Shown one piece after another: positions 2,466 through 26,402 of a DNA stretch of 27,520 nucleotides. The DNA is taken from positions 1 through 27,520 of the IMG/VR virus record IMGVR_UViG_3300047480_000113. The stretch is one strand, 5' to 3'. The position numbers and the translations under genes are program-made. Below the pieces are notes generated by a model that was given only the letters and a program-made list of their open reading frames with translations, did no database searches and was not told the origin of the DNA. This DNA is from a virus. Each line of letters starts with the position of its first letter. The first letter of the stretch is position 1.

Positions 2466-3917
2466 TTAGGCTCCGTAACGGAACAATACGAAGTTGTTCG
2501 CACCCAAGGTACATACAGCACGCTCAGATAAGAAGTTGACTTCCATTGCATCGAGGTCGCTAGTAGCAGCACCACCGGCAGAACCTGTAATCCATGTTTT
2601 GTAACGGCGGTCTTCAGTCTCAGAAGCGCGGTAACGCACGTGTAAGAATGGACGCTTAGCGTTTTTACCAAGGATTTGGTCGTAAACAGTAGTTGAACCT
2701 GCAGGAACTAATAGACCTGTGATTGAGTTAGCAGTTGTAGCTCCTGTAGCAGAAGGAGTCAATCCACCACGCATAGTTGGGTCGTTGAGGTATTTCCAAT
2801 CTGTTTTGTAGAAGTCATAACCACGGCGGAATCCTGAGAAACCAAGGTTAAGGGCCATATCGCGGTCGTTATCAAACAAACCGTAAGAAGTACCACCTGC
2901 ACCGTAAGAGTTTTGAGCAGCCAACATATCATCGATATCGAAGCTGAAGTCACGGTTTACAAACAATACGTTTTCTTCGATAGAACCTTGCTTGTCAAGA
3001 CGTGAGATAACAGTGTCGAAGTCTTGTAATGAAGTTGGGTTACCACCACCCCATACGTTACCACGAGAGTTAACTACGTAGAATACACCCTCAGAACCTT
3101 TGTTACCAACTTGGTTGTTAACAGTCTGAGTGGCAACACCTGAACCTGATTCAGCAGGAACAGCTTCCAACATAGAAGTTTCGAGGTAGTCCTCAAAGCG
3201 GAGACGAGTCTCGTGCTCAGACTTCAAATACCAAAGGTATCCTGTAGCACCATTCTCAGTAGTTACTTCAATCCAACCAATTTGAGCCATGTCAGAACCT
3301 GAAACAGCGTACTTGTCTTTGATGATGATTGGGCTGTTAGAGAAGATTTCATCCTCAGCTTCCAATGAACCAATCATACCGTTAGTTCCTTTCTTGAACT
3401 CAGAACCATAGATAAATACGGTAAACTCGTTAGCAGCAGTGTTGTTGTTGTGGAAACCTGCAGCCTCGTAGAAGTAAACTGTAAATTGGTCAGTACCTGT
3501 GTTAACAGCAGTAACGATACCTTTGTTTTGAGTACCACCACCTGCAACATTAGGAGTGAGCATTACAGTTTGACCAACGCGAATTGCGATACCTGATACG
3601 TTCAAGTCATTCACAGTGAACTGTGCGTTATTAACAGGAGAACCTGAAGGAACAGCACCTGTAACAACCTTGGTGTACTTGGTATGCAAACGACCTTGCT
3701 CAGCCCATTTGATTTGGTCAGAGATAGACGGCATCTCAGCACCTACCATACGAAGGAAAGATGCAACGGTACGGTTTCCGTAGCGCTCAAATTCTTTCTC
3801 ATATGTATCAGGTAAATACTGATTCATGAAGTTAAAGTTTGTCAAGTAGTTGCTTGACAATGGTACCTGTTCAGCACTCGGCTGCAACTGATACGGAGGT
3901 GTAGCTAATAAAGACAT
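2466..3917 (-). CDS. Major capsid protein (HK97-fold candidate)
   Basis: This 483-aa protein would form the icosahedral shell. It follows the scaffold candidate, with TerL and portal before that, which is the normal place for the capsid gene. Its size is typical of a podovirus HK97-fold capsid protein. The N-terminal part (LTNFNFMNQYLPDTYEKEFER, then RYGNRTVASFLRMVGAEMPS and IKWAEQGRLHTKY) resembles capsid proteins of Bacteroidota phages. A Gly/Thr/Asn-rich beta segment (about 85-165) may be an inserted domain. The C-terminus (FLSERAVCTLGANNFVLFRYGA) has the hydrophobic ending common in this group. The leader just before the ATG is nearly pure A (AAAAAAAGAAAAAA), which fits high expression without a Shine-Dalgarno site. 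A strong terminator follows. Identification rests on context and pattern. Confidence 0.8.
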   Translation of the reverse strand: MSLLATPPYQLQPSAEQVPLSSNYLTNFNFMNQYLPDTYEKEFERYGNRTVASFLRMVGAEMPSISDQIKWAEQGRLHTKYTKVVTGAVPSGSPVNNAQFTVNDLNVSGIAIRVGQTVMLTPNVAGGGTQNKGIVTAVNTGTDQFTVYFYEAAGFHNNNTAANEFTVFIYGSEFKKGTNGMIGSLEAEDEIFSNSPIIIKDKYAVSGSDMAQIGWIEVTTENGATGYLWYLKSEHETRLRFEDYLETSMLEAVPAESGSGVATQTVNNQVGNKGSEGVFYVVNSRGNVWGGGNPTSLQDFDTVISRLDKQGSIEENVLFVNRDFSFDIDDMLAAQNSYGAGGTSYGLFDNDRDMALNLGFSGFRRGYDFYKTDWKYLNDPTMRGGLTPSATGATTANSITGLLVPAGSTTVYDQILGKNAKRPFLHVRYRASETEDRRYKTWITGSAGGAATSDLDAMEVNFLSERAVCTLGANNFVLFRYGA

Positions 3918-5077: not shown

Positions 5078-7513
5078 TTAGCGGGGTTCAAACTCGGCTA
5101 AATCAAACCCATCAAGGGAATCCTCATTAGACTCAAAGCTTATCGGAGGAAGATTGTTCTTTCTCTGATTAATTAATTTAGATTGCTCGCTGTTTTGCTG
5201 ACTAATACGTTTAGCCTTGGCTTCCTCACGGTCCTTCTCTCTATTACTCAATGACTCTTCTTCAACACCCTTAAGCTGCATCTGCATCTCGAACTCTGAC
5301 TGCATCAACTGCTGCTTGAGCATTGCTTCATTCTTCATTTTCTCAATATCAAAAGCCACCTCTGCCTGCTTAAGCTGCATCTTTGACTGAGTCTCAGCCT
5401 GAATCTTAGCCATGGCAGCCTGAGCTGACATCTGCTGAATCTGCATCTGCTGCTGTGCCTGCATAGCCTGCTGCTGAATAGCCATCTGTTGAGCCTTCTC
5501 CTCCTTCTTAACTCGTTTCAGTTTGAGGAGTTGGTTAGCCAATTTGATATTTTTAATTTCGCGTATATCAATCGCATCCTCAAGGTTAATATCACCCTTA
5601 GATAAAGCAACTTGAATGTTTTGTTCGAGTTGTGCTTTTTCCTCTTCATCAGGAGAGATATCAATAAAAATTCCGAAATCATATATGTATAGGTCTTTAA
5701 TTTCATCTAGTATTGATACATTATATTTACCAATCTTATTGGCAAAATCATCCCTGAAGTCAGCATACTCAAGAATATCTGCAATTCTGTACGTGAGTGC
5801 TTCAGATATAGACTTAAACATATATAAGCTTCCATCAAGTATATGACGTGTAGCAGTGTTTGAATTTAATGCAGCAAGTTTCTGTACGCCAATCAATGCA
5901 CGTGGGTCCGGGTCAGAACCATCTCTAGCCTCATTAAGACCTGTTACCGCACGAATCATGTCAAGGTAGTGGTTGTAGTTTGCAATAAGCATCTGAGTCT
6001 TAGCAGCACCTGAGTTGCTATTGAGCTCTTGGATTGGAACCCTAGCATTGTTAAAGTCCCCATCCTGTGTATAGCTACGACCAATAACGCTACCTGTTTG
6101 GAAGTAGAGTCTTAATGCATCCTCAGGATTATAAGCATTGCCCGTACCAAGGTCAACCTCATTGAGACCATCGGCGTCAATAAATACACCATCCGGAACA
6201 ACGCGCGATATAACCTGCTGAAGCTTTAAGTGCGTCAATTGGATGAGGTCAGCAAATGGTATCATTCTACGTACCAATGACTCAATTACACCCTTGTACA
6301 TACGAGGCGCAACAGCCACATAGTTTGGTAGTGCATGCTGAGTAGCAGACTTTGGTCTAACCATGTTCTGAGCTAGCTCCCACTTAAGCAGGATGTTAGT
6401 ACCCATAACCATGATTCCTTCATACCAAACGTCAATTATCTTCTCGACTTTTTCAAAACGACCTTCTTCCATCATCTCCACGGGAGGGTTGAAGTTCTCG
6501 TCTTTTTCAATCATTCGAGTATTTCCATTATCAAGAATTTTCTTCTTGTATACAATCTTTTTAGTAGTCTTATAGTTAAAGTATAGAAGAGTACACGTAT
6601 CACGGTAAAAAACATTATTTTCATAGAACTGAGCTACATTATAGTAGTCATACCAACTCTGACTGTATTTAGATATCTTCTCTAAATCTTCATTAGTAAG
6701 AGATTGGTCAATCTTGTAAAGCTCGGTAATTGGAAGTGTCTTAATCTCACCCCAATAGAAACAGTCACGGAAGTAAGGGTCTTCTGTATAGCTATAGACT
6801 ACGTTTGCCGGGTCTACGTATGACACCTGAATACCTGCTCCGGGAAGAAACTCGTGCTTCTCGACAGCAATACCAAGGCACATAAGGTCATAGTCACACT
6901 GACTACGAATATTGCTATACCTATTCTCATCAAGAATTGTATTGATAGCCTCCTCCTCTGCAATCTCAATTGCAGGCTTGTAGTTGAGGTTCATGTATAA
7001 CGATAGTTCCTCATCGCTATTTGGAAGCTCATCAGGCTTCATTACAAATGGGTCTACACCTGTGTTCTCTTGGATACTAGTAAGAAGGTCTTTTGCAACC
7101 ATCTGACTCTCAATCATATCCTGATACTTACTACGCTTTGCTTGTGACATTGCATCCTGTGCATACGCCTTAACTTTGAATAAGCGGTCTGACATTCCAT
7201 TGACAACAATGTCAACAAACTTAGGTATGATTGGAACAGGAGTCCAATCTAGATTGATATATGAAAGGTCGCCATCAACGGCAAGCTCATCCTTGTACTT
7301 CTGAATAGGTTGTTCTCCACGTGCATATAGACGGAGTCGGTGAAAGTCACGCCACTGACTGTAGTATCTACATTGGTTACCATCTTTTCTAAACCACTCA
7401 TATTGGATGGCCTGTCCAACTTGGAGACCAAACTCAAGGGTTTCTTTCTCTGCATCAGTTGCGAATTGACTCGGAAATGACGTAGATGATATGTTTACAA
7501 TTACTTCTTTCAT
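5078..7513 (-). CDS. Portal protein
   Basis: This 811-aa protein would form the dodecameric portal through which DNA is packaged. Its start overlaps the TerL stop by 4 bp (ATGA), the classical terminase-portal coupling. Residues 90-115 (PKFVDIVVNGMSDRLFKVKAYA) match the early conserved segment of portals from crAss-like and related Bacteroidota phages. Around 200-240 lies SQCDYDLMCLGIAVEKHEF followed by VSYVDPANVVYS, a typical wing-domain pattern. The region near 440-540 (LKLQQVISRVVPDGVFIDAD, YLDMIRAVTGLNEARDG) fits stem and clip. The last 150 residues are a Gln/Met-rich long helix (AIQQQAMQAQQQMQIQQ), consistent with an extended barrel or a disordered tail. The length is in the range for large podovirus portals. 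Confidence 0.88.
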   Translation of the reverse strand: MKEVIVNISSTSFPSQFATDAEKETLEFGLQVGQAIQYEWFRKDGNQCRYYSQWRDFHRLRLYARGEQPIQKYKDELAVDGDLSYINLDWTPVPIIPKFVDIVVNGMSDRLFKVKAYAQDAMSQAKRSKYQDMIESQMVAKDLLTSIQENTGVDPFVMKPDELPNSDEELSLYMNLNYKPAIEIAEEEAINTILDENRYSNIRSQCDYDLMCLGIAVEKHEFLPGAGIQVSYVDPANVVYSYTEDPYFRDCFYWGEIKTLPITELYKIDQSLTNEDLEKISKYSQSWYDYYNVAQFYENNVFYRDTCTLLYFNYKTTKKIVYKKKILDNGNTRMIEKDENFNPPVEMMEEGRFEKVEKIIDVWYEGIMVMGTNILLKWELAQNMVRPKSATQHALPNYVAVAPRMYKGVIESLVRRMIPFADLIQLTHLKLQQVISRVVPDGVFIDADGLNEVDLGTGNAYNPEDALRLYFQTGSVIGRSYTQDGDFNNARVPIQELNSNSGAAKTQMLIANYNHYLDMIRAVTGLNEARDGSDPDPRALIGVQKLAALNSNTATRHILDGSLYMFKSISEALTYRIADILEYADFRDDFANKIGKYNVSILDEIKDLYIYDFGIFIDISPDEEEKAQLEQNIQVALSKGDINLEDAIDIREIKNIKLANQLLKLKRVKKEEKAQQMAIQQQAMQAQQQMQIQQMSAQAAMAKIQAETQSKMQLKQAEVAFDIEKMKNEAMLKQQLMQSEFEMQMQLKGVEEESLSNREKDREEAKAKRISQQNSEQSKLINQRKNNLPPISFESNEDSLDGFDLAEFEPR

Positions 7514-9771
7514 GTATCTAAGGAGCTAATATTCCCTTTATTATTATATCTAGCAAATTTAATGCTTATTTTTGACTCTTTTACCTCGGGTTGATATAAG
7601 TGCTTCTGACAGGCCATTATAGCCAATCCTGAGCTAATTGTGGCATCAAACATTGTTCGGTCGCTAATATCAAACTTAGCCCAATCCTCTAGTGTCCTAG
7701 TGAAAGGCATTGTGCCCATATCACCCTCTGAGTTAAGTCCAATATACTTCTCGATATAAGACTCAACAGCAGCTGCATGAGCCTGCTTTACATCCTCAGA
7801 TGAGTTTGGTATACCACCTAGCTCTCGCTCAGTCTTAGATAGTTTGTTATATGTTTTGTCAGGACGATTGATACAGAATCCACGGTACCCCCTGTTCTTA
7901 AAGTGATAAAGTAATCGAGGTTTGTTGTTCTCAATTAAGATTGGCATACCATAGAATACGCAGGCCATAAGCACTTCTTCAAAGAATATCTCTGCAGTCT
8001 GAGGTCTAGCTATATACTCTAGAAAGAACTCATTTACAGGGCCATCATCCATATGGAACTTAGTAAGGCCATGCAGCGCTCCATTTGAACCTCGTCCAAC
8101 AACAACGCCTGAGATATCGTAGGAGTCACATCCAAATGCCCCCATATGGTCATTGCCGGGATGTTTTATACCATGCTTCTCATACACATTGTTCTGAAGA
8201 TGTTTAGCGGGTGTCCAAGATACCAAGAACCTCCCCCTCTTATCGGGAGTGAATATAACTTGACTATCTCGTATACCATCCTTCCAACTGAAGGAACCTC
8301 TAGTCATGTAGTGCTCTTTTATGATTGTGTCATTATAGTCAATCTGTTGGTATATCTTAGTAAGATTGAACAGCGCTGCTTTTGACTCATCACGGAAAGC
8401 ATGAGACTCAGTGCGCGGGAACTGACGATAGTATTCATTAAGTGCATCAGGGTCATTTTTAAGTGATTCAACTTCAGCCTCCCAATAGTCGATAGCTCCG
8501 TTCATAATCCAATTCCCATCAATTCCTTTTACAGGATTGCTAGGTTTACGTAGAACAGGCATACCATAGATATCAATAAAGCCTTCCATATTCCACTCCA
8601 TTGGAATAAATAGAGCATATAGGCCTGACTTAGTCTGACCGTTTGCATTTCGGGTAGATATCCTAGAGTCCTCGTACAGGTCCTTAAAGTTCTGACCACC
8701 CTTAGCAAGTGCGTTAGATGTAGAACCCATCATACACTTGCCAATTACTTTTGAACCTAGACGAAGACACGTCTTAGTTACGCGCCAATTGTTCAGAATG
8801 TTATTTGGTTTAATCCATTTTCCACTCTCGTCATGAGCTAGGAATAACAGCTTCTCACCATCATAGCTGTTGTCGTCTGTGTTCTTCCAATCTATTGTTG
8901 TGTCAAGGCCATCTATCTCATCGCTGTCAACGTCAGACATATTCTTCTTGGTAATCTTTGATGCAGGCACCCGGTATGCAAGCTCTGTCTTTGGCTTATC
9001 CATACCATCCATAACAGGCTTGAAGAAGAAAGGTAGGTTGCTATTGATTGGTACTACCTTATCTGTAAACATCTTCTTAGCATCAGCACCTGTCTTAGAT
9101 AATATTCCAACCCTTGCATCTTTTGCAAGAGTTCCAATATTCACGCACTCTGAAGAAGACATGAATGAGAAACCGGAACGGCGTATCTTTAAGTAAACCA
9201 TACCGAAGCTTCTAGGGTCTGCCTTGCATGCCTCCCAAAAAATATATAGTATTCTATTTGCTTCGCGAAAGTCAGGATATCCGATGTCAATCTTAGACCA
9301 TTGAAGATACATGTAGTGAGCCCCTGTGATATAGTGGGGCCTTCCATTGTTCATAAACCAATGCCCATTCTCTCTCCTATCAAACTCTTCCTCTATATAG
9401 TCTACATATCTAGCCTTAAAGTCTTTAGGCATCTCATGCCACTGAAATATTGATTGTATTCTTCCAAGTTGACTAGGTAGTTCTTCTCTCTGCCAATACT
9501 GCTCAGATGCTTTAGAGTGTCTTTGAAGACACTCCTTAGGTGCTAGTGGTAACGCAATATGAAGACCCGATATCTTTACAATATCTCCAATCTGCCCTGT
9601 CTTTGATATAACTACAATATCGTATTGGTCGTTATACCCATAGCTCCAAGTCCTGTTCCTATTCTTTGTAGAAACAATATTCTTTGGAATATAGTCATCG
9701 ACTATACTGCATAGACTATTTAGCTCTTCGCTCAGCCCAACCCTGCTTTGTGTCAAGTTTTGATGATTCAT
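7510..9771 (-). CDS. terL: Terminase large subunit (TerL)
   Basis: This 753-aa packaging motor has an N-terminal ATPase and a C-terminal RNase-H-like nuclease. A deviant Walker A lies at about 195-202 (KIRRSGFSFMSSS), with the basic residues ahead of the loop as in lambda gpA rather than a canonical GKT/S. Walker B is at about 308-315 (LLFLAHDE, catalytic Glu present). The coupling motif is GSTSN near 350. The nuclease has acidic motifs FGCDSYD (about 547-553), ILIENNK (about 611-617) and RTMFDAT (about 704-710). The ATG overlaps the upstream 94-aa gene by 56 nt. No later Met gives a complete ATPase, so this start is preferred. The gene carries the dyad GAGTGTCTTTGAAGACACTC at 9515-9534. It is translationally coupled to the portal. 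Confidence 0.93.
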   Translation of the reverse strand: MNHQNLTQSRVGLSEELNSLCSIVDDYIPKNIVSTKNRNRTWSYGYNDQYDIVVISKTGQIGDIVKISGLHIALPLAPKECLQRHSKASEQYWQREELPSQLGRIQSIFQWHEMPKDFKARYVDYIEEEFDRRENGHWFMNNGRPHYITGAHYMYLQWSKIDIGYPDFREANRILYIFWEACKADPRSFGMVYLKIRRSGFSFMSSSECVNIGTLAKDARVGILSKTGADAKKMFTDKVVPINSNLPFFFKPVMDGMDKPKTELAYRVPASKITKKNMSDVDSDEIDGLDTTIDWKNTDDNSYDGEKLLFLAHDESGKWIKPNNILNNWRVTKTCLRLGSKVIGKCMMGSTSNALAKGGQNFKDLYEDSRISTRNANGQTKSGLYALFIPMEWNMEGFIDIYGMPVLRKPSNPVKGIDGNWIMNGAIDYWEAEVESLKNDPDALNEYYRQFPRTESHAFRDESKAALFNLTKIYQQIDYNDTIIKEHYMTRGSFSWKDGIRDSQVIFTPDKRGRFLVSWTPAKHLQNNVYEKHGIKHPGNDHMGAFGCDSYDISGVVVGRGSNGALHGLTKFHMDDGPVNEFFLEYIARPQTAEIFFEEVLMACVFYGMPILIENNKPRLLYHFKNRGYRGFCINRPDKTYNKLSKTERELGGIPNSSEDVKQAHAAAVESYIEKYIGLNSEGDMGTMPFTRTLEDWAKFDISDRTMFDATISSGLAIMACQKHLYQPEVKESKISIKFARYNNKGNISSLDT
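9515..9534. repeat. 20-bp dyad inside terL, copy 2
   Basis: GAGTGTCTTTGAAGACACTC is a perfect inverted repeat (9-bp arms, 2-nt centre) located in the terL coding sequence. It encodes part of APKECLQRHSKAS. The same core forms the stem of the capsid terminator at 2422-2447 and occurs at 22444-22461. Confidence 0.85.
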
Positions 9772-10000
9772 CTTTTACCTCCTCTAGCGTAGCTTTCTCA
9801 GCTTCAATTTTATTTAAAATCTCAAATGCATCAAATATAGCCAATCGTTTTGATGCTGCAGCGTTCTTTAGTTTATCTGCCGAAAGGTCATCCTCAGGGT
9901 CAGGCTTGATGATATCTTCCTTAGCAACCTTTATTAATTGCTCAACAGCTCTGTAGCCTGCCTCAATAATATTAAGCCTTAATTGTTTCTCTCTGCTCAT
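9716..10000 (-). CDS. Small helical protein upstream of terL, TerS candidate
   Basis: The 94-aa product is almost entirely predicted helix (MSREKQLRLNIIEAGYRAVE, later AAASKRLAIFDAFEILNKIE) with a charged C-terminus. It sits directly upstream of terL and overlaps it by 56 nt, the usual place for the small terminase subunit, which recognises DNA and regulates TerL. It is shorter than many TerS proteins, and no helix-turn-helix is obvious by eye. Its ATG overlaps the stop of the upstream 187-aa gene (ATGA). TerS is inferred from position. A dispensable helical accessory protein is the alternative. Confidence 0.55.
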   Translation of the reverse strand: MSREKQLRLNIIEAGYRAVEQLIKVAKEDIIKPDPEDDLSADKLKNAAASKRLAIFDAFEILNKIEAEKATLEEVKDESSKLDTKQGWAERRAK

Positions 10001-10560
10001 AACTTGATTGTAATTTGATGGTCATACATACGGTATAGCTTTTCTCCGTCCACATTAAATTCATACTCGCTATCAGGCTTAAAGCATACCTTATCTCCGG
10101 CCTTTATTCCTGCATCCATAAGAGCTTTGTTTGGATATCTCATTATACCCATAAGAGGCTCTTCCTCAATTGGCTTATAGATAAATGACTCCTCAGGCTT
10201 GATAGGTTGAACAAAGCAATATCTGTCATACGCATGCCAACCCGTCTCATTGTGATACATGAAGAACTGTTCATCATCAATAAAAAAGAGGTCCTCCTTA
10301 AAAAAGCTTTTACCACTCTTCCGGCGACCTCTCATGTCATTGTAGAACTTGAATACATTGTGATGGACTAGAAGCTTATCTCCAATCTTAATTGGACCGC
10401 TGTAGTCTACGGGTACCTCAATAACCTCTGCCTCTCTATTTGAGAATCTGTGGTCCTCTTCAGAGGTACTAATAATTAGCTCAATACCACCTATCTCCTT
10501 GGTGTTATTGTATCTCTTTCCGCTAATTGGTCTTGTGATAAAGTAGAATGGTGATTGCAT
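9997..10560 (-). CDS. Possible GroES-like co-chaperonin-fold protein, two half-repeats
   Basis: This 187-aa protein has two segments that each resemble the GroES beta-barrel signature. In the first (about 22-120) there is GGIELIISTSEEDHRFSNRE, then EVIEVPVDYSGPIKIGDKLL and FFIDDEQFF, ending YDRYCFVQPI. In the second (about 137-187) there is GIKAGDKVCF and FNVDGEKLYRMYDHQI. GroES proteins show the same order: a glycine-containing strand, V(I/V)xV, K(V/I)GDKV, then an (D/N)GEEY-type strand and a final hydrophobic I strand. I infer a GroES-type fold, perhaps analogous to T4 gp31, but similarity is by eye and remote. Its place in the packaging operon suggests a role in capsid or portal folding. 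It could instead be a structural beta-barrel protein. Confidence 0.45.
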   Translation of the reverse strand: MQSPFYFITRPISGKRYNNTKEIGGIELIISTSEEDHRFSNREAEVIEVPVDYSGPIKIGDKLLVHHNVFKFYNDMRGRRKSGKSFFKEDLFFIDDEQFFMYHNETGWHAYDRYCFVQPIKPEESFIYKPIEEEPLMGIMRYPNKALMDAGIKAGDKVCFKPDSEYEFNVDGEKLYRMYDHQITIKL

Positions 10561-22339: not shown

Positions 22340-22684
22340 TTACTTCTTTTTAACGTTACTTACTCTGTTGCCCATCCCTACCCTTGACTTCTCAGCCTTC
22401 TTGGCTGCAAGCTTGGATGGACTTAATTCACTCTTTGTTACCGGTGTCTTTGAAGACACTCTCTTGGATGGTCGGCAGTACTCATTGCTACCACCTGCAC
22501 CACAGGCCTTACCTGTTCTAGTATCGACCCACTTCTCTTTCTCCCATCTCTTAAGACTAGTTCCCTTCTCAGTCTTCTTTACATTTCCTGACGCCTTACG
22601 GCACTTAGCAATAGCCTGCGAAGCTCTAGCTGAGGGGAACACATCATAAGATGCCTTGACCTTTTTGTAGCAGGCGTCCTTCAT
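22340..22684 (-). CDS. Small basic Cys-containing protein, DUF5872-like C-terminal segment
   Basis: The 114-aa protein begins MKDACYKKVKASYDVFPSAR and has SQAIAKCRKASG, a pattern I know from small proteins of phages and giant viruses. A second segment, RWEKEKWVDTRTGKACG followed by CRPSKRV, matches my recollection of DUF5872 (a family shared by phages and eukaryotic viruses). Four Cys in CRK, CG and CRP contexts may bind metal. The C-terminus is a basic tail (KLAAKKAEKSRVGMGNRVSN). The gene contains dyad copy 3 at 22444-22461. A nucleic-acid role is plausible from composition, not shown. Confidence 0.7.
   Translation of the reverse strand: MKDACYKKVKASYDVFPSARASQAIAKCRKASGNVKKTEKGTSLKRWEKEKWVDTRTGKACGAGGSNEYCRPSKRVSSKTPVTKSELSPSKLAAKKAEKSRVGMGNRVSNVKKK
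22444..22461. repeat. 18-bp dyad inside the 114-aa gene, copy 3
   Basis: GTGTCTTTGAAGACACTC contains the perfect inverted repeat GTGTCTTTGAAGACAC (7-bp arms), identical to the core at 2422-2447 and 9515-9534. It is read in a different frame from the terL copy, so protein conservation does not explain it. Confidence 0.8.
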
Positions 22685-24037: not shown

Positions 24038-24475
24038 ATGGACGATTACCTCAAGTATTGGAGGGTGATTAGGCAGTATATTAAGGTAAAGCATGGCTTA
24101 ACACAGTCAGACCTTGACATGCTGATGTTTATATACACAGAAAAGTACTTCTCGAAGGCCCGTTTTGATGAGTTCTCACGAATTGTGTCGTGGGATGCGG
24201 ACAGATTTAAGCGTCTGAAGGAGAACGGGTGGATTGAGTCGTTCAGAAAGTACGACCCACGCACGAATACTCGTGCAATCTATCAGATTTCGCCGGATGG
24301 CAAGCGTGTTGTGCAGAGTATCTACAGGATGCTTAAGGGTGAAGAGATGCCAATCACCCCTAAGTACAATCCTATGTTCAAGAGCAATGCCAAATACATG
24401 AGCAAGGTCTATAGAAACTCAATTAGAGAGCTGAACTCCTACCTGAAACAACAACAACGTCCCGCTCGTGAATGA
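24038..24475 (+). CDS. Winged-helix DNA-binding protein, probable regulator
   Basis: This is the only supported plus-strand gene. The 145-aa product has a MarR-like winged-helix layout. A helix (YLKYWRVIRQYIKVKHGL) precedes LTQSDLDMLMFIYTEKYFSK. A recognition-helix region follows (DEFSRIVSWDADRFKRLKEN), then a wing with GWIESFRKYDPRTNTRAIYQ and ISPDGKRVVQSIYRML. The C-terminus is basic and helical (NSIRELNSYLKQQQRPARE). No DNA target is visible in the protein, but its own promoter is the 19-bp palindrome, which suggests autoregulation and control of the divergent cluster. The last 53 nt overlap groES on the opposite strand, so antisense interference is possible. Confidence 0.75.
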   Translation: MDDYLKYWRVIRQYIKVKHGLTQSDLDMLMFIYTEKYFSKARFDEFSRIVSWDADRFKRLKENGWIESFRKYDPRTNTRAIYQISPDGKRVVQSIYRMLKGEEMPITPKYNPMFKSNAKYMSKVYRNSIRELNSYLKQQQRPARE

Positions 24476-24698
24476 TGGTGTACGGCTTGTCGTTGATAAC
24501 CATGGTATATGAGTTGTTCTTGTCGTAGTAAATCTCATCCCCGGCCTTGATGACGCTCACGTCAGTACCCGGTACGATAACATTACCCACCTTATAGCGA
24601 AACTCATTCGCGTCATGGGCACTTAAGAGGAGGCCCGACTCGGTCTTGACCTCCTTCTCTACTGTCTCAATGATAATATTCTTTCCTATTGCAATCAT
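24423..24698 (-). CDS. groES: Phage co-chaperonin GroES (Cpn10)
   Basis: The 91-aa protein caps the GroEL chamber. Its GroES barrel features are in order: AIGKNIIIETVEKEV, a mobile loop with GLLL (residues 22-25) in place of the usual GIVL that contacts GroEL, KVGNVIVPG, and VIKAGDEIYYD matching VKxGDxVxF. ITIIHERDVVVV-like strands (YTIIHERDVVVVSG) close the fold. It is about as long as bacterial GroES (97 aa). Its start overlaps the groEL stop by 4 bp, so it is translated second, the reverse of the usual bacterial groES-groEL order. Its last 53 nt overlap the convergent 145-aa gene. Confidence 0.88.
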   Translation of the reverse strand: MIAIGKNIIIETVEKEVKTESGLLLSAHDANEFRYKVGNVIVPGTDVSVIKAGDEIYYDKNNSYTMVINDKPYTIIHERDVVVVSGRSSAL

Positions 24699-26314
24699 CG
24701 TGCGTCATATGTTCGCGCCATTGTGATAATAGCGTCAGTTGATAAGATAGTTGTAGCAACACTCACTGCGTTCTGCAGTGCTGAGCGTGTCACCTTGAAT
24801 GGGTCAATTACACCCATCTGCATAAGGTCACCGTACTCACCCGTCTTGACATTATATCCCTGCCCATCAGCTAAGGACCCATTACCAAATGTGTAGATGT
24901 CATAAAAATTAAGACCTGCGTTTGCCAAGATTTGTTTTACAGGCGTGCTTAGCGCACTACGCATTATTGAGAGTGCTGCGTCATACTCCTTGGTCTTCCC
25001 AACAATATTGTTAAGAGAGATGGCCTCATCAAGGAGTGCCTTGCCACCACCCGGAAGGACACCCTCCTCTAGTGCTGAGCGTACTGCACACACAGCGTCA
25101 TCAACCCTGTCGTATAGCTCCTTCTGCTCAATGTCAGTGGTACCACCCACATAGATGACACCAACGCCGCCCGTAAGCGATGCGATGCGAGACAGGATGA
25201 AGTCCTTGTCATGCTTCTTGGTCGCCTCTGCGTGTGATGCCCATAGCTGAGCAACTCGCTCCTCCACAGCCTCCTCGTCAGTACGTGCCGGTGAGTTAAT
25301 GATTACAGTGTTCTGCGAGTCAACAATAATCTTAGATGCGTGACCTAGGTCAGCATATGTCATCAAGCTCAAGTCGTCACCCGTCTTCTCACTGAAGTAC
25401 TTGGCACCTACAGCTAGCGCGATGTCGCTCATCAGCTCGTGCTTCTTGTACCCAAAGCTAGGCGGCTCAATAGCACATATCTTAAGCTTACCCTTGGCCA
25501 CGTTTGCAGCCAATGTATTTACCACGTTTGTAGAGCATGGTGCAATGATAAGAAGACGCTTGCCCTCCTGAATGATTGGCTTAAGGATATTCTCCAACTG
25601 AAGAATGTTGTGAATCTCAGCGTCACACACCAATACCAATACATCCTCGTACACACACTCGTCACGCTTGTGGTCGTTGATGAAGTATGGCGAGTAGTAC
25701 CCACGCTGTATCTTGAAGCCATGAGTGCTCTCTGCATATGTCTCGTTGGTCTGTGACTTCTCCACGGTAACAATCCCATTCGTACCAATCTCGTTGTATA
25801 CGCGCGAAATGATTCCACCGATGTTCTTGTCGTTGTTGGCGGATATGGTAGCCACATCGCTCACCATCTTCTTGGTCACCTTCTTCTTCTTCTTCTTTAG
25901 GCTCTCAACCACCTCGTCAGCTATCTCACTGATGTGGCGTAGCACCTGAATACGATTCAGCTCAGGATTGATTATCTCATCTCCCGCAAGGACCAACGCC
26001 TCAGTAAGTACAATGGCAGTAGTTGTACCATCACCCGCATTGGTGGCCGTCTTGTCGGCAGCCTCCTTCATCATCCTTACAGCCAAGTTCTCAACCGGGT
26101 CAAGTAGGTCTACAGCCTTAGCGACAGTCACCCCGTCCTTTGTTACTGTAATACCTGCTGTGTGGTTAGCTGACTCAATCAGCACTGTGTTGCCTCGTGG
26201 GCCTAGCGTGCTCTTTACAGCACCTGCAATCTTTGTGATTCCATTAATGAGCTTCTCTCGCCCAAGCTCTCCAAACTTTATGTCCTTCGGAGAGTAACCT
26301 AAGTTCTCAATCAT
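24695..26314 (-). CDS. groEL: Phage chaperonin GroEL (Cpn60)
   Basis: The 539-aa protein forms the chamber for ATP-driven folding. Conserved features are TLGPRGNTVLIES, TKDGVTVAKAV (Asp60), AGDGTTTA (Asp95) and DDAVCAVRSALEEGVLPGGG (Asp406), which match the E. coli ATP and magnesium residues Asp52, Asp87 and Asp398. The apical domain holds RGYYSPYFIN. The usual GGM-rich C-terminal tail is absent, the protein ending TMARTYDAR. A run of lysines (LKKKKKKVTKK, about 139-149) lies near the equatorial-intermediate hinge. I chose ATG 26314. A TTG at 26320 would add two residues. groES follows with a 4-bp overlap, in the order groEL-groES. An inverted repeat covers the promoter. Confidence 0.95.
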   Translation of the reverse strand: MIENLGYSPKDIKFGELGREKLINGITKIAGAVKSTLGPRGNTVLIESANHTAGITVTKDGVTVAKAVDLLDPVENLAVRMMKEAADKTATNAGDGTTTAIVLTEALVLAGDEIINPELNRIQVLRHISEIADEVVESLKKKKKKVTKKMVSDVATISANNDKNIGGIISRVYNEIGTNGIVTVEKSQTNETYAESTHGFKIQRGYYSPYFINDHKRDECVYEDVLVLVCDAEIHNILQLENILKPIIQEGKRLLIIAPCSTNVVNTLAANVAKGKLKICAIEPPSFGYKKHELMSDIALAVGAKYFSEKTGDDLSLMTYADLGHASKIIVDSQNTVIINSPARTDEEAVEERVAQLWASHAEATKKHDKDFILSRIASLTGGVGVIYVGGTTDIEQKELYDRVDDAVCAVRSALEEGVLPGGGKALLDEAISLNNIVGKTKEYDAALSIMRSALSTPVKQILANAGLNFYDIYTFGNGSLADGQGYNVKTGEYGDLMQMGVIDPFKVTRSALQNAVSVATTILSTDAIITMARTYDAR

Positions 26315-26336
26315 ATACAATTAAATTTAACTGTCA

Positions 26337-26344
26337 CAAAATTA
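26337..26344 (-). promoter_or_regulatory. Promoter box (TAATTTTG) of groEL
   Basis: The minus strand reads TAATTTTG, matching TAnnTTTG, 22 nt before the groEL ATG at 26314. It overlaps the downstream arm of the inverted repeat at 26340-26367. Confidence 0.5.
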
Positions 26345-26367
26345 AGTGTTTTTCACCACACTTAATT
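26340..26367. promoter_or_regulatory. Inverted repeat over groEL promoter, operator candidate
   Basis: Arms AATTAAGTGT (26340-26349) and ACACTTAATT (26358-26367) pair perfectly over an 8-nt centre. No T-tract follows, so it is not a terminator. Its architecture recalls the CIRCE element of bacterial groE operons, but the sequence differs (CIRCE is TTAGCACTC-N9-GAGTGCTAA). Confidence 0.6.
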
Positions 26368-26375
26368 ATTTTTCA

Positions 26376-26402
26376 CAAAAAAAGCCACCCCGAAGGATGG
26401 CT
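26376..26402 (-). terminator. Rho-independent terminator after the 98-aa gene, UUCG loop
   Basis: On the minus strand AGCCATCC-TTCG-GGGTGGCT forms an 8-bp stem (one G-U pair) closed by a C(UUCG)G tetraloop, followed by seven T. It lies 21 bp beyond the stop of the 98-aa gene and before the groEL promoter. Confidence 0.85.

Follow-up and report, generated by a model that had tools for sequence, protein, structure and literature searches.

The question raised by the groEL-groES pair of the uncultured virus IMGVR_UViG_3300047480_000113 is whether a phage can build a folding machine of its own and, if so, for which proteins. The window, i.e., the entire stretch of DNA analyzed, is a linear viral fragment of 27,520 bp and not a whole genome. 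Its minus strand encodes a group I chaperonin (GroEL) and the cognate co-chaperonin (GroES), both recognized in an earlier note on this DNA, together with a second co-chaperonin composed of two tandem Cpn10 domains, which that note had missed and which is new here. The interpretation that we favor, and regard as probable, is that these three proteins together form a group I chaperonin, complete and private to the phage, whose two lids serve the folding of phage head proteins.

The groEL-groES Pair

The groEL gene (24,695-26,314, minus strand) specifies a group I chaperonin of 539 amino acids, reading from an ATG at 26,314 to a TGA at 24,697-24,695; this start was preferred to the TTG at 26,320 with which the listed open reading frame (ORF) of 541 amino acids begins. 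It is followed by groES (24,423-24,698, minus strand), encoding a single-domain Cpn10 co-chaperonin (Pfam PF00166) of 91 amino acids, and the tetranucleotide ATGA (24,695-24,698) is common to both genes. GroEL matched Pfam Cpn60_TCP1 (PF00118) over positions 1-488 of the 490 in the profile (E = 2e-59; 202 bits against a cut-off of 34) as well as phrog_5725, "chaperonin groEL" (E = 2e-136), and the groES product matched Cpn10 with an E-value of 1.8e-10 (41 bits; gathering cut-off, 21). The minus-strand ORFs and near-full-length Pfam matches thus bear out the earlier proposal that both genes are intact, ordered groEL then groES, and overlap by 4 bp. This overlap is not a clade-wide property; close relatives have it, but in others up to approximately 1 kb lies between groEL and groES, in some cases with inserted ORFs.

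Ratios of nonsynonymous to synonymous substitution rates (dN/dS) of approximately 0.09 for groEL and 0.08-0.20 for groES indicate that both genes are under strong purifying selection. Moreover, the pairwise distances among GroES proteins track those among the GroELs (r = 0.82; Mantel p = 0.0005). The aspartates previously assigned to the ATP site, D60, D95, and D406, align with D52, D87, and D398 of Escherichia coli GroEL and proved to be conserved in 33 of 33 clade members, as was D504 (E. coli D495). The GDGTTTA and TLGP motifs are likewise invariant among these 33 proteins, with the exception of a single T91S replacement.

With GroES, the sequence SGLLLS was found at the position of the mobile loop in an alignment with bacterial homologs, and the roof loop is short: only four residues separate the VPG turn from the IKAGD strand, compared to 14 in Salmonella and nine in Parabacteroides. 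A roof beta-hairpin is hence missing from the phage protein, which at this place is approximately 10 residues shorter than GroES of Salmonella and 5 shorter than that of Parabacteroides. Such a loss would be compatible with co-chaperonin function because gp31 of phage T4, which also has no roof loops (PMC6318259), forms a larger cage that accommodates the approximately 56-kDa head protein gp23 (PMC6318259; PMC3012670). T4 gp31 and CocO of phage RB49, which serve head-protein folding, are likewise phage co-chaperonins with an absent or short roof loop. These single-domain proteins operate with the GroEL of the host, whereas the window phage has its own GroEL and, in addition, the tandem protein.

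A Tandem Co-chaperonin Encoded with the Head Genes

The second co-chaperonin, of 187 amino acids, is encoded at 9,997-10,560 (minus strand) and matched phrog_13932, "co-chaperonin GroES" (E = 5e-25). Its first Cpn10 domain spans residues 7-75, approximately, plus a strand at 91-119, and its second approximately 136-187. A profile hidden Markov model built from a broader set of single-domain GroES proteins gave two ordered matches across the tandem family, at approximately 7-75 and 118-196. With E-values computed for a set of 32 proteins, the N-terminal match ranged from 3e-5 to 2e-3 in copies from Elemovirus phages and was weak (0.07) in the window copy, and the C-terminal match reached 3e-9 in Cellulophaga phage phi18:3, 7e-6 in phi40:1, and 4e-4 in the window protein; the C-terminal domains of phi18:3 and phi40:1 also exceeded the Pfam cut-off for Cpn10. 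An hhalign profile-profile comparison between the tandem protein and GroES was uninformative, as the alignments were too shallow. An AlphaFold2 model of the protein (predicted local distance difference test, 83; predicted template modeling score, 0.78) found its best PDB folds, over nearly the whole length, in chains 7ekq_R (Cpn20; E = 5e-5, template modeling score 0.60) and 7ekq_Q (Chaperonin 23; E = 4e-4, 0.54), both of which are two-domain co-chaperonins of chloroplasts. The architecture of the 187-residue protein is therefore that of a tandem Cpn10, and a GG-I-EL-I stretch occupies the mobile-loop position of its first domain.

The resemblance to chloroplast Cpn20/Cpn21 extends to the head-to-tail arrangement of two Cpn10 domains and to the presence of a single-domain Cpn10 alongside. 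In contrast, identity to chloroplast Cpn20 is only 13% and an insertion occurs at approximately residues 74-90, such that the likeness is one of fold only. Searches of PDB sequences by phmmer and hmmsearch with the tandem profile and the phi18:3 protein returned weak GroES matches but no Cpn20 chain, and without a sequence link to the plastid protein, an independent duplication is the likelier origin.

The tandem gene lies two genes upstream of that for the large subunit of terminase (7,510-9,771, minus strand; 753 amino acids; phrog_6681, E = 5e-176), which is followed by genes for a portal protein (5,078-7,513, minus strand; 811 amino acids; phrog_6547, E = 4e-144) and a head protein of 483 amino acids (2,466-3,917, minus strand; phrog_13704, "virion structural protein" of the head and packaging category, E = 1.5e-98). 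From its position and size, the latter is presumably the major capsid protein. The same order, viz. tandem gene, small gene, terminase, and portal, was found in phi18:3. Of 39 related contigs, 34 contain the tandem gene, and the remaining five are partial records; the gene accompanied 85 of the 87 related terminases found in GenBank phages, and its product is encoded by at least 600 IMG/VR stretches. One phage with such a terminase, Tenacibaculum phage Gundel_1, was found to encode neither a Cpn10 nor a GroEL. The dN/dS of the tandem gene is approximately 0.01-0.05, with dS saturated, making it the most conserved part of the system. A structural role in the virion was considered as an alternative; in the records of phi18:3 and phi40:1, nearby virion proteins bear a note of detection by tandem mass spectrometry proteomics and the tandem protein does not, which is weak evidence that it is probably not a part of the virion.

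GroEL, a single-domain Cpn10, and the tandem protein occur together in phi38:1, phi40:1, Calle_1, the Elemovirus phages, and Podoviridae sp. ctfjg026 (MW202828), and every phage surveyed that has the tandem gene also encodes a single-domain Cpn10. Cellulophaga phage phi18:3 (NC_021794) has the single Cpn10 (31,117-31,338) and the tandem gene (41,458-42,060) with no GroEL in its whole genome.

Abundance, Gene Order, and Origin

A full-length phage GroEL, and more so one accompanied by GroES, had been considered rare. This view did not hold: a tblastn search detected GroEL relatives in 230 of 50,697 GenBank phage records, 212 of them covering at least 80% of the query, and close relatives were present in at least 132 IMG/VR stretches, of which the best 80 were retrieved. 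Two of the records filed as phage, CAKLQH020000021.1 and AGRM01000005.1, carry ordinary bacterial chromosome genes, including groES-groEL, and inflate the GenBank counts.

The order of the two genes was correctly noted to be opposite to the bacterial groES-groEL arrangement, but it is not peculiar to this one phage: all 81 related loci have groES following groEL, with both genes on one strand. The same order is seen in cultured Elemovirus phages of Flavobacterium and in each of the 13 uncultured loci of the Elemovirus type in which both genes are complete. By comparison, groES comes first in Parabacteroides, Phocaeicola, Prevotella, Salmonella, Acinetobacter, and Collinsella, as it does in the phages Calle_1, phi38:1, and immuto (Callevirus and Immutovirus). 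The swapped order is thus a trait of the lineage. In a study of virioplankton by Marine et al. that appeared in ISME J in 2017, the order of the GroEL and GroES genes was reportedly linked to GroEL phylogeny, and phage GroELs are said to have been divergent from those of bacteria and often to have had an adjacent groES. Viral chaperonins and variable gene order have already been reported, and the groEL-groES pair alone is not new in kind.

Given the existence of captured host genes in other phages, the pair could have been a recently acquired host groE operon, carried as cargo to aid host or phage under stress. A maximum-likelihood tree was constructed from 63 GroEL sequences, comprising 33 members of the window clade and others that included, as representatives of the Bacteroidota bacteria, GroELs of Bacteroidales and an ancestral Fibrobacteres-Chlorobi-Bacteroidetes (FCB) sequence. 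Capture of this kind is indeed seen in the same tree, where the GroELs of Vibrio phages phiKT1024 and 2.275.O lie inside the Gammaproteobacteria. The 33 window-clade proteins, however, fall on one side of a branch with support of 97/94, rising to 100/100 when the longest branches were removed, and no bacterial GroEL of the 63-sequence tree lies within the clade. This branch measures 1.2-1.8 changes per site, identity to any bacterial GroEL seen is only 36-41%, and the gene order is opposite to that of Bacteroidota hosts. Placement of the pair within a recent bacterial host clade had been named as the outcome that would speak against a phage machine; examined for GroEL, it was not observed, recent host capture of groEL is rejected on the basis of the separate phage clade, and the cargo interpretation, largely refuted by the tree, is now very improbable.

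The two Vibrio phage GroELs, which are placed next to that of Salmonella, represent a separate capture from gammaproteobacterial hosts; in phiKT1024 the groEL gene is positioned between those for the tail sheath and the tail tube. Among bacterial assemblies, only that of bacterium TMED88 has a GroEL close to the phage protein (62-63%), and it also encodes the tandem co-chaperonin twice (61 and 40%). Given that an ordinary GroEL is encoded elsewhere in this assembly and that it has the phage tandem gene, the contig bearing the close copy is most likely binned phage sequence.

The best PDB match of the window GroEL was the ancestral FCB group I chaperonin (E = 4e-118), with E. coli GroEL ranking below it. 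A Bacteroidota setting is consistent with this result, and phages with a related terminase have Flavobacterium, Cellulophaga, Tenacibaculum, and Maribacter as their hosts. The source phage is a virus of Bacteroidota-type bacteria. Among its relatives, MW202828 (a circle of 60,850 bp) has the same genome type and gene order, with identities of 63% for GroEL, 79% for terminase, and 69% for the tandem protein; it is another species, and its tandem gene bears no annotation beyond "hypothetical." The Elemovirus phages (elemo; MT497107) likewise encode a tandem cpn10 next to a terminase of 45% identity, and their tandem homolog, 35% identical, is annotated "chaperonin cpn10." They differ in that their GroEL is 36% identical and not clearly of the same clade, and in the otherwise arranged strands of the head and groE genes; shared ancestry of the two GroEL groups received support of 59/65 in the tree with the longest branches removed, and the Elemovirus proteins were placed elsewhere in the 63-sequence tree, long branches being involved. 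The GroELs of AR9 and of the Pseudomonas jumbo phage type are located on very long, separate branches.

Transcription Signals and Neighboring Genes

A Bacteroidota-type -7 element, TAATTTTG, is found at 26,337-26,344 (minus strand), 30 bases 5' of the groEL ATG. Among 52 non-redundant relatives, 38 have TAnnTTTG beginning between -40 and -24 from groEL, compared to a mean of 0.7 and a maximum of 5 in shuffled sequences, and the conserved position of the box supports the earlier suggestion that groEL-groES has a promoter of its own. Similar boxes precede other genes of the phage (at 27,408, 26,720, 23,981, 21,980, 20,736, 11,627, 5,035, and 1,523). A hairpin followed by a U-run (26,377-26,402, minus strand), detected by RNA folding, resembles a terminator for the gene upstream of groEL (26,720-26,424) and would separate that gene from the groEL transcription unit; the fold of the whole segment 26,310-26,425 has a z-score of -5.1. 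A perfect 10-bp inverted repeat with a loop of 8, evident in both sequence and fold, overlaps the -7 element (26,340-26,367, minus strand). Its identity as a conserved, CIRCE-like operator was considered and set aside, as it was not found at the same place in relatives.

Convergent with groES is a gene on the plus strand (24,038-24,475) for a winged-helix-like regulator (phrog_12817, "transcriptional regulator," E = 2e-5; PadR-like below the cut-off), which overlaps the 3' end of groES by 53 bp and has its own TAACTTTG box 37 bases upstream on the plus strand. Essentially every relative has a homolog that adjoins groES and is encoded on the other strand, and the regulator may control the groE or the head unit. 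Elsewhere, a small protein encoded at 22,340-22,684 (minus strand) matched DUF5872 (E = 2e-13).

Proposed Function of the Phage Chaperonin

The proposal of a private folding machine was likely sound in its substance, given a complete and constrained pair with its ATP site, mobile loop, and promoter, even if rarity can no longer be counted in its favor. In the mechanism that we envisage, groEL and groES would be expressed as one transcription unit from a host-type promoter recognized by a Bacteroidota sigma factor. GroEL would form a seven-subunit ring that binds ATP, and the matched GroES would dock through its mobile loop to shut the chamber, within which newly made phage proteins would fold. 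These would most likely be head proteins, such as the 53-kDa product of 2,466-3,917, the most likely client in that its 483 residues give it a size similar to that of gp23; the portal protein and terminase appear to exceed what a GroEL-type cage can hold. The tandem co-chaperonin, produced from the head-gene operon, would provide an alternative or mixed lid on the GroEL of either phage or host, and may be specialized for head assembly as gp31 of T4 is for gp23. Ring formation, ATPase and folding activity, capping, the pairing of lids, and the identity of the clients are what we infer from these comparisons.

Several observations weigh against this interpretation. In the apical groove, Y199, F204, and L237 are retained, but the residue equivalent to E. 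coli L234 is a glutamate in 31 of the 33 clade members, and V263 and V264 are replaced with alanine in all 33. Mutation at these positions of the E. coli protein impairs the binding of both substrate and GroES, and the function of the phage GroEL may thus be altered or lost. The residues of E. coli GroEL that make contacts between rings, R452, E461, S463, and V464, are not conserved in the clade, and the C-terminal GGM repeats are absent, so that the cycle may involve a single ring or differ in some other way. Finally, because phi18:3 has the lid without the chaperonin, the tandem lid may not be the partner of the phage GroEL.

These same departures from E. coli GroEL would be compatible with a protein acting as a binder or decoy in the interaction of virus and host, or as a partly redundant chaperone working without a lid. 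Precedents for the latter are found in phages EL, OBP, and AR9, the jumbo-phage chaperonins of which are highly divergent and act without a co-chaperonin (PMC9598537; PMC7185714). This explanation is nonetheless improbable: groES has been kept beside groEL in 81 of 81 loci, its distances mirror those of GroEL, and the ATP site is invariant. Moreover, the window GroEL does not conform to the lidless type, being a plain group I protein far nearer to bacterial chaperonins than are those of EL, OBP, and AR9. Taken jointly, the apical substitutions, which occur as a set in the clade, and the shortened GroES roof loop fit the favored view of a matched private pair with a more open, gp31-like lid.

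A further explanation divides the labor differently. The tandem co-chaperonin would act with host GroEL to fold the head proteins, and the groE pair would serve proteins of replication or lysis or replace host GroEL upon host shutdown. In its favor, conservation is highest for the tandem gene, which tracks terminase and persists without GroEL in phi18:3, and the groE pair is a unit apart, with a promoter of its own; further, the EL chaperonin acts on an endolysin in vitro (PMC9598537). Against it, the single-domain Cpn10 present in every tandem-gene phage surveyed hints that both lids cooperate. We regard such a division as rather unlikely, and retain the two-lidded private chaperonin for head proteins as the probable arrangement.

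Cooperation of the lids would have a parallel in chloroplasts, where Cpn10 and Cpn20 coexist and units of two domains are mismatched to a seven-fold ring (PMC5780408). By analogy, GroES and the tandem Cpn10 might co-assemble as a mixed lid of seven domains tuned to the head protein, with the tandem gene being ancestral and GroEL having been added in some lineages; this extension is speculative and, on balance, unlikely.

Significance

The novelty of the locus lies in the combination of a phage chaperonin, an ordinary lid, and a tandem lid linked with the genes for packaging. To our knowledge, a tandem lid does not figure in the 2017 virioplankton study, no report of one in phages was found in the open-licence literature, and a 2020 paper on Baltic Flavobacterium phages does not mention chaperonins. 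The system belongs to aquatic phages of a very common group, in which the contribution of a lid to capsid folding lends itself to a natural test. It also provides a case from outside the plastids of the symmetry problem posed by a seven-fold chamber and a two-domain lid. Cultured relatives tractable in the laboratory are available for its study, these being the Elemovirus phages of Flavobacterium and the Cellulophaga phages phi38:1, with GroEL, and phi18:3, without it.

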